A DNA stretch of 6,239 bases, taken from Pseudomonadota bacterium (GTDB lineage: Bacteria > Bdellovibrionota_C > UBA2361 > OMIW01). This document shows, in pieces, positions 5,277 through 6,239 of the stretch (position 1 is its first letter; every line of letters starts with the position of its first letter). The stretch lies in contig OMIW01000180.1 of NCBI GenBank assembly GCA_900299205.1, positions 1 to 6,239 on the forward strand. Direction: 5' to 3'. Below the pieces are notes generated by a model. It did no database searches. It was given only the letters and a program-made list of their open reading frames with translations, and had not been told where the DNA came from. Made by a program: the position numbers and the translations under genes.

Positions 5277-5357
5277 CTGACCATATGAGTTAAAACGGCC
5301 GATGCTGGTGGATTTACCTTACTAATCAGCATGGATACTCGAAAAAAGGAAATTACG

Positions 5358-5672
5358 ATGGATCGCTTTAAAAGAGGTGCAGGTAAGTTCAGTCGTGGAA
5401 TCCGTGTTGTCTCGGTTGTTTCGGTTGTGGCGGCGTTGAGCGCAAGCACATCGGGGTGCTATGTGGCGCGGGCAACTGGAGAGACCTTTGAGGCAGTAGG
5501 TGTGGGAATGGGACGAGCTCTTGGTGGTGTCTCTCAAGGGGTAGGGCACGTTGTTGCGGGAACAGGGCGAGCGGTTACCAGGGCAGCCAGCGGTAATCAG
5601 GGACCAGCACCTCGATCGGTGAGTGCAGACGCAGACCTAGTCTCGGATGATAGTCGCGACTTCAGGTTTTAG
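5358..5672 (+). CDS. Small glycine-rich predicted lipoprotein
   Basis: I do not recognise this 104-residue protein as a named family. It has a positive N-region (RFKRGAGKFSRGIR), a hydrophobic core (VVSVVSVVAALSA, about 17-29) and then TSGC with cysteine 34, a plausible though imperfect lipobox (T at -3), so it is probably exported and lipid-anchored. The mature part (about 41-79) is spaced with glycines (GETFEAVGVGMGRALGGVSQ and on), resembling glycine-zipper helices found in small envelope proteins. The tail (80-104) is polar, acidic and ends DFRF. The ATG at 5358 was chosen because AAGGA (5346-5350) lies seven bases upstream. The in-frame ATG at 5331 has no ribosome site and would put charged residues before the signal. 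The gene has its own predicted promoter and precedes the hydrolase gene by 143 bases. Confidence 0.72.
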   Translation: MDRFKRGAGKFSRGIRVVSVVSVVAALSASTSGCYVARATGETFEAVGVGMGRALGGVSQGVGHVVAGTGRAVTRAASGNQGPAPRSVSADADLVSDDSRDFRF

Positions 5673-5725
5673 AGCAACGTTTACCCGTTAGAGGTTTTCA
5701 ATCATTCCCCGTTTCCCCGGTTTGC

Positions 5726-5821
5726 TGTCATCACAAAAAGGGGTTAGGCTTCGGCGTATCTAAATGGACCGGAGAAATCTGAATTCCAGATGCCCTTCTG
5801 AGTGAGAGGTTTGTGATGACA
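5726..5821 (+). promoter_or_regulatory. Structured 5' leader that could sequester the hydrolase start codon
   Basis: TGTCATCACAAA (5726-5737) is the exact reverse complement of TTTGTGATGACA (5810-5821), giving an uninterrupted 12-bp helix. The right arm contains the start codon ATG (5816-5818). The 72 bases enclosed can form CTTCGG/CCGGAG (5749-5754 with 5769-5774, one G.U), ATCTG/CAGAT (5777-5781 with 5787-5791) and a bulged CCTTCT/AGAGG (5794-5799 with 5805-5809) that covers most of the Shine-Dalgarno GAGAGG. Together this is a closed multi-branch leader. Regulation of translation is inference; I do not recognise a named riboswitch class. Confidence 0.45.
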
Positions 5822-6239
5822 ACAGCGGGAGCCCTTCGAATAATCACCCTTGAGGTAACACCGGTGGGTCAGAACTGCCGGATTCTGGTGGATGATTCGC
5901 AGAAACGAGCTATCATCATCGATCCCGGTGGTGAGGTTGATGGCATTCGAGAGATCCTTTCGCGAGATGAGCTGATCCTCGATCAAATCTGGCTCACCCA
6001 TTCGCATTTTGATCATTGTGGGGGTGTCGCCGAGCTTAAGGAGGCAACCGGCGCTATCCTTTTCGCCCATCCTGGTGAATCGCTTTTTCGTCAACATGTG
6101 CTCACCGCCGTCGAGCGTTGGCAGCTTCCTCTTGATGGATTTCGGAATTGCCCCGAACCGGACCGCACGCTCGTCGGGGGCGAGCGACTGGAGTGGAGTG
6201 GCTATACCTTCCATGTTCTCCCAACCCCCGGACATTCAC
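5816..6239 (+). CDS. Metallo-beta-lactamase-fold hydrolase, YcbL/glyoxalase II type (cut by window end)
   Basis: The first 141 residues are present and the frame is open at the window end. The metal-binding signature THSHFDHCGG gives H62, H64, D66 and H67, and TPGH provides the next metal histidine at 140. The N-terminus (EVTPVGQNCRIL, then IIIDPGG at 33-39) matches the small single-domain hydrolases related to glyoxalase II, such as E. coli YcbL (GloC), which hydrolyse S-lactoylglutathione or similar thioesters. With half the protein missing, the substrate is uncertain. The ATG at 5816 has GAGAGG (5804-5809) six bases upstream; the codon before it is GTG (5813) and could also initiate. The start codon lies within the 12-bp inverted repeat described separately. 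It is co-directional with the lipoprotein gene, 143 bases upstream, and no separate promoter is evident. Confidence 0.9.
   Translation, partial: MTTAGALRIITLEVTPVGQNCRILVDDSQKRAIIIDPGGEVDGIREILSRDELILDQIWLTHSHFDHCGGVAELKEATGAILFAHPGESLFRQHVLTAVERWQLPLDGFRNCPEPDRTLVGGERLEWSGYTFHVLPTPGHS

Follow-up and report, generated by a model that had tools for sequence, protein, structure and literature searches.

Translational riboswitches and autoregulated leaders sequester the Shine-Dalgarno (SD) sequence or the start codon, RNA thermometers such as ROSE and fourU pair the start region in a leader hairpin, and paired operators of the lac and gal type work together with DNA looping. An MBL-fold hydrolase gene at the end of the 6,239-nt stretch of DNA analysed here (referred to as the window) has a leader with likenesses to each of these systems. 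This leader carries an inverted repeat that the original prediction took for the closed state of a translational switch, responding to a ligand, to temperature or to a protein.

As in translational riboswitches and autoregulated leaders, the predicted leader-start helix could block initiation, but it lacks a known aptamer, an Rfam family, a conserved interior and a demonstrated alternative fold. The pairing of the start region in a leader hairpin is shared with ROSE and fourU elements, whereas the helix is here long and perfect, stays unmelted to 65 °C in the model and has no Rfam match. The spacing of about 84 bp, in helical phase, between two near-palindromic sites recalls the lac and gal operators, yet no known regulator and no motif regulon go with these sites, and one of the two lies on the start codon. 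The repeat itself exists, whereas the step from it to a switch is unsupported. The repeat is probably coincidental, or at most private to the lineage, and in the hydrolase leader it would act at most as a fixed brake on translation.

Geometry of the repeat and its genomic setting

The two reverse-complement 12-mers, TGTCATCACAAA and TTTGTGATGACA, were found to match exactly across a spacer of 72 nt, just as had been predicted, and they form the sole perfect 12-bp pair with a spacer of at most 200 nt in the whole window (Table 1). Allowing one mismatch, a repeat search extended the pair to 15 nt (14/15 matching; 5723-5737/5810-5824). The location of the downstream arm at the start of the hydrolase gene was likewise borne out, although this arm offers two candidate start codons. 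Because the SD-like AGAGG is spaced 6 nt from the ATG at 5816 and only 3 nt from the GTG at 5813, the sequence points to ATG 5816 as the likely start.

Table 1. Features of the hydrolase leader and its flanking genes (window coordinates)
Feature	Position	Strand	Basis or remark
Upstream ORF, 113 aa, lipoprotein-like N-terminus	5331..5672	+	ORF list, profile searches
Left (upstream) arm, TGTCATCACAAA	5726..5737	+	one-mismatch extension to 5723
Interior, 72 nt, short weak predicted hairpins	5738..5809	+	folding
AGAGG, likely SD for ATG 5816	5805..5809	+	direct sequence reading
Right arm, TTTGTGATGACA	5810..5821	+	holds GTG 5813 and ATG 5816; one-mismatch extension to 5824
MBL-fold (Lactamase_B) hydrolase gene, 5′ part	5816..6239	+	Pfam PF00753, E 3.1e-18

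The ORF upstream of the leader had no Pfam or NCBIfam match; no match to it was found in the order, and weak matches appeared in two class-level relatives only. The window is a complete contig (C180) of the source genome, a 206-contig assembly of 2.45 Mb. The end of this contig overlaps that of contig C140 over 250 bases, 247 of which are identical (window 5990-6239 versus G000:C140:4965-5216). Such an overlap with slight sequence variation indicates that the hydrolase gene is split across C180 and C140.

Predicted folding of the leader and the proposed translational switch

A transcript beginning upstream of 5726 would form the 12-bp helix (predicted arm-to-arm duplex energy of -15.5 kcal/mol), which is predicted to close the ATG. 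In seven model transcripts containing the left arm, the helix had a probability of 0.69-0.96 and the ATG was paired at 0.76-1.00 throughout, against an ATG pairing of 0.01 or 0.58 in model mRNAs that lacked the left arm (starting at 5738 or 5757, respectively). Among 505 sampled genes with a recognisable SD, only 2.4% had a start region that was at least as paired. Sequestration of the start, as expected of a translational switch, is therefore seen in the models, and these values speak for a mechanism in which the helix shuts the ATG by default until it is opened by a ligand, a protein or a small RNA.

Such a switch is nevertheless unlikely. Its helix was not found in the order-level relatives examined (see below), its interior shows no stable or conserved aptamer-like structure, and the left arm is only a putative part of the mRNA. 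The stretch from the upstream gene to the start showed no promoter above chance. The best candidate, a weak one with its -35 at 5722 and its -10 at 5745, was matched by 88% of shuffles and would place the left arm between the -35 and the -10, and thus mostly outside the mRNA.

Among the checks proposed along with the original prediction were a search of Rfam and a fold of 5673-5830. In the whole window, Rfam at the gathering threshold returned RNase P only and no riboswitch, cis-regulatory leader or other leader family, while a loose threshold over 5600-5900 yielded a single chance-level snoRNA match (12.8 bits versus a gathering score of 60). The RNase P RNA, of bacterial class A, lies at 2078-2451 and scored 231.9 bits. 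The fold of 5673-5830 showed no clear excess stability (z -0.35), and that of the shorter span 5720-5830 reached z -1.85, with 12 of 200 shuffles as good; by this modelling, the whole leader fold is not unusually stable compared with shuffles. Interior hairpins, one of which had been said to cover the SD, were indeed predicted, with the SD partly inside one of them, but they are short and weak.

Raising the temperature in the model from 15 °C to 65 °C lowered the helix probability from 0.96 to 0.82 with no melting in between, which speaks against an RNA thermometer. Of the switch-like layout, the geometry and the closed ATG of the predicted fold thus held up, but neither Rfam, nor fold stability, nor the orthologues supported a switch. 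Still more doubtful, and in our view very improbable, is a new type of translational switch, specific to the lineage, that acts on the hydrolase through a long-range start-closing helix; a true switch would count as a novel regulatory RNA from a lineage not yet cultured. Under the preferred reading of a coincidental repeat, a transcript that includes the left arm may instead carry a fixed brake on translation initiation, the helix burying the ATG. Such a brake would be constant, sensing neither ligand nor temperature nor protein, and the pairing would presumably not have been selected as a switch.

Chance level and conservation of the arm pair

When the window was shuffled 400 times at the dinucleotide level, a 12-bp pair with a spacer of at most 100 nt arose in 3% of the shuffles (mean 0.03), and one with a spacer of at most 72 nt in 2%, so that the earlier estimate of 0.04 such pairs per window was about right. 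The genome itself is richer in such pairs. Over 910 kb of it (approximately 0.91 of 2.45 Mb), we counted 14 perfect 12-bp pairs with a spacer of 20-100 nt, compared with 2-6 across eight shuffles. This approximately threefold excess suggests that some of the pairs are real structures. It also calls for caution, as the corresponding rate of about 0.1 per 6.2 kb means that inverted repeats of this kind (12 bp, perfect, within 100 bases) turn up here about once per ten windows of that size.

When the 128-nt leader was shuffled with the start region held fixed, a 12-bp match was obtained in none of 20,000 shuffles, a low figure that concerns a single gene chosen for having such a match. Across approximately two thousand genes, a few tenths of one such case would be expected by rough estimate. 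The leader shuffles, the genome excess of pairs and the rank of the start pairing in the top 2.4% were all counted against coincidence; after the search space is taken into account, the chance level of the pair is modest.

The nearest orthologues of the hydrolase that we found belong to the same order and have 51-53% protein identity; none of the other genomes retrieved came from the same family, and a scan of named genomes revealed no orthologue that was closer. The arm pair was present in none of the 27 other genomes of the order examined. At the 29 other orthologue loci, no perfect pairing of the start region of at least 9 bp was detected within 220 bases upstream; the best pairing was one of 8 bp, at three of these loci, with nothing of 8 bp or more at the remainder. 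At several loci, the start overlaps or directly adjoins the upstream coding sequence. An alignment of eight leaders, made with covariation in view, had a mean column identity of 33%, with starts that did not line up, a divergence too great for pair counts. Across the class, DNA matches were confined to the coding part and none covered the leader itself.

Orthologues that keep the gene but lack the upstream arm had been named beforehand as evidence against a switch. They do occur at the level of the order, but they bear on the switch only from a distance, since leaders diverge fast. With the nearest orthologues only about 53% identical in protein, the absent conservation is weak evidence. Because no examined relative shares the pairing and switch function found no support, the pairing is most likely a coincidence or an ordinary local fold. 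Coincidence is the most economical reading, under which the repeat might still dampen translation to a constant degree.

Alternatives at the DNA level

The arms might also act as DNA, being two operator sites through which a putative DNA-binding regulator loops the promoter. Each arm is an imperfect palindrome (right arm, TTGTgatgACAA, from which the left arm differs by one mismatch), the distance of 84 bp between the arm centres corresponds to 8.0 turns of 10.5 bp, and the best promoter candidate overlaps the left arm. However, that candidate was no better than shuffles, an operator on top of a start codon would be unusual, and the phasing and palindromy of the arms were post hoc observations. 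A regulon of the arm motif was rejected, as the exact motif has no other copy in the genome and its one-mismatch copies, nine in number, showed no excess (four for a backwards control pattern and approximately ten estimated for random sequence). Paired DNA sites bridged by a regulator, which the original prediction had offered as an alternative, thus agree with the near-palindromic arms in helical phase but not with the lack of a regulon-like motif excess, and we regard them as improbable.

The layout also resembles terminal inverted repeats, as if the arms bounded a small element, mobile or repeated, of 96-102 bp. This unit is single-copy in its own genome, which largely refutes such an element, and neither the other genomes of the order nor IMG/VR contigs yielded the arm pair; we consider this origin extremely unlikely.

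A stronger leader repeat was observed elsewhere in the same genome, where two arms 30 nt apart, CCTGAAATAAGCTCAC and GTGAGCTTATTTCAGG, form a perfect inverted repeat of 16 bp that has no other exact copy. It is located on contig C46 (L155:6053-6114, genome G000), before or over the start of a gene for a luciferase-like monooxygenase (PF00296).
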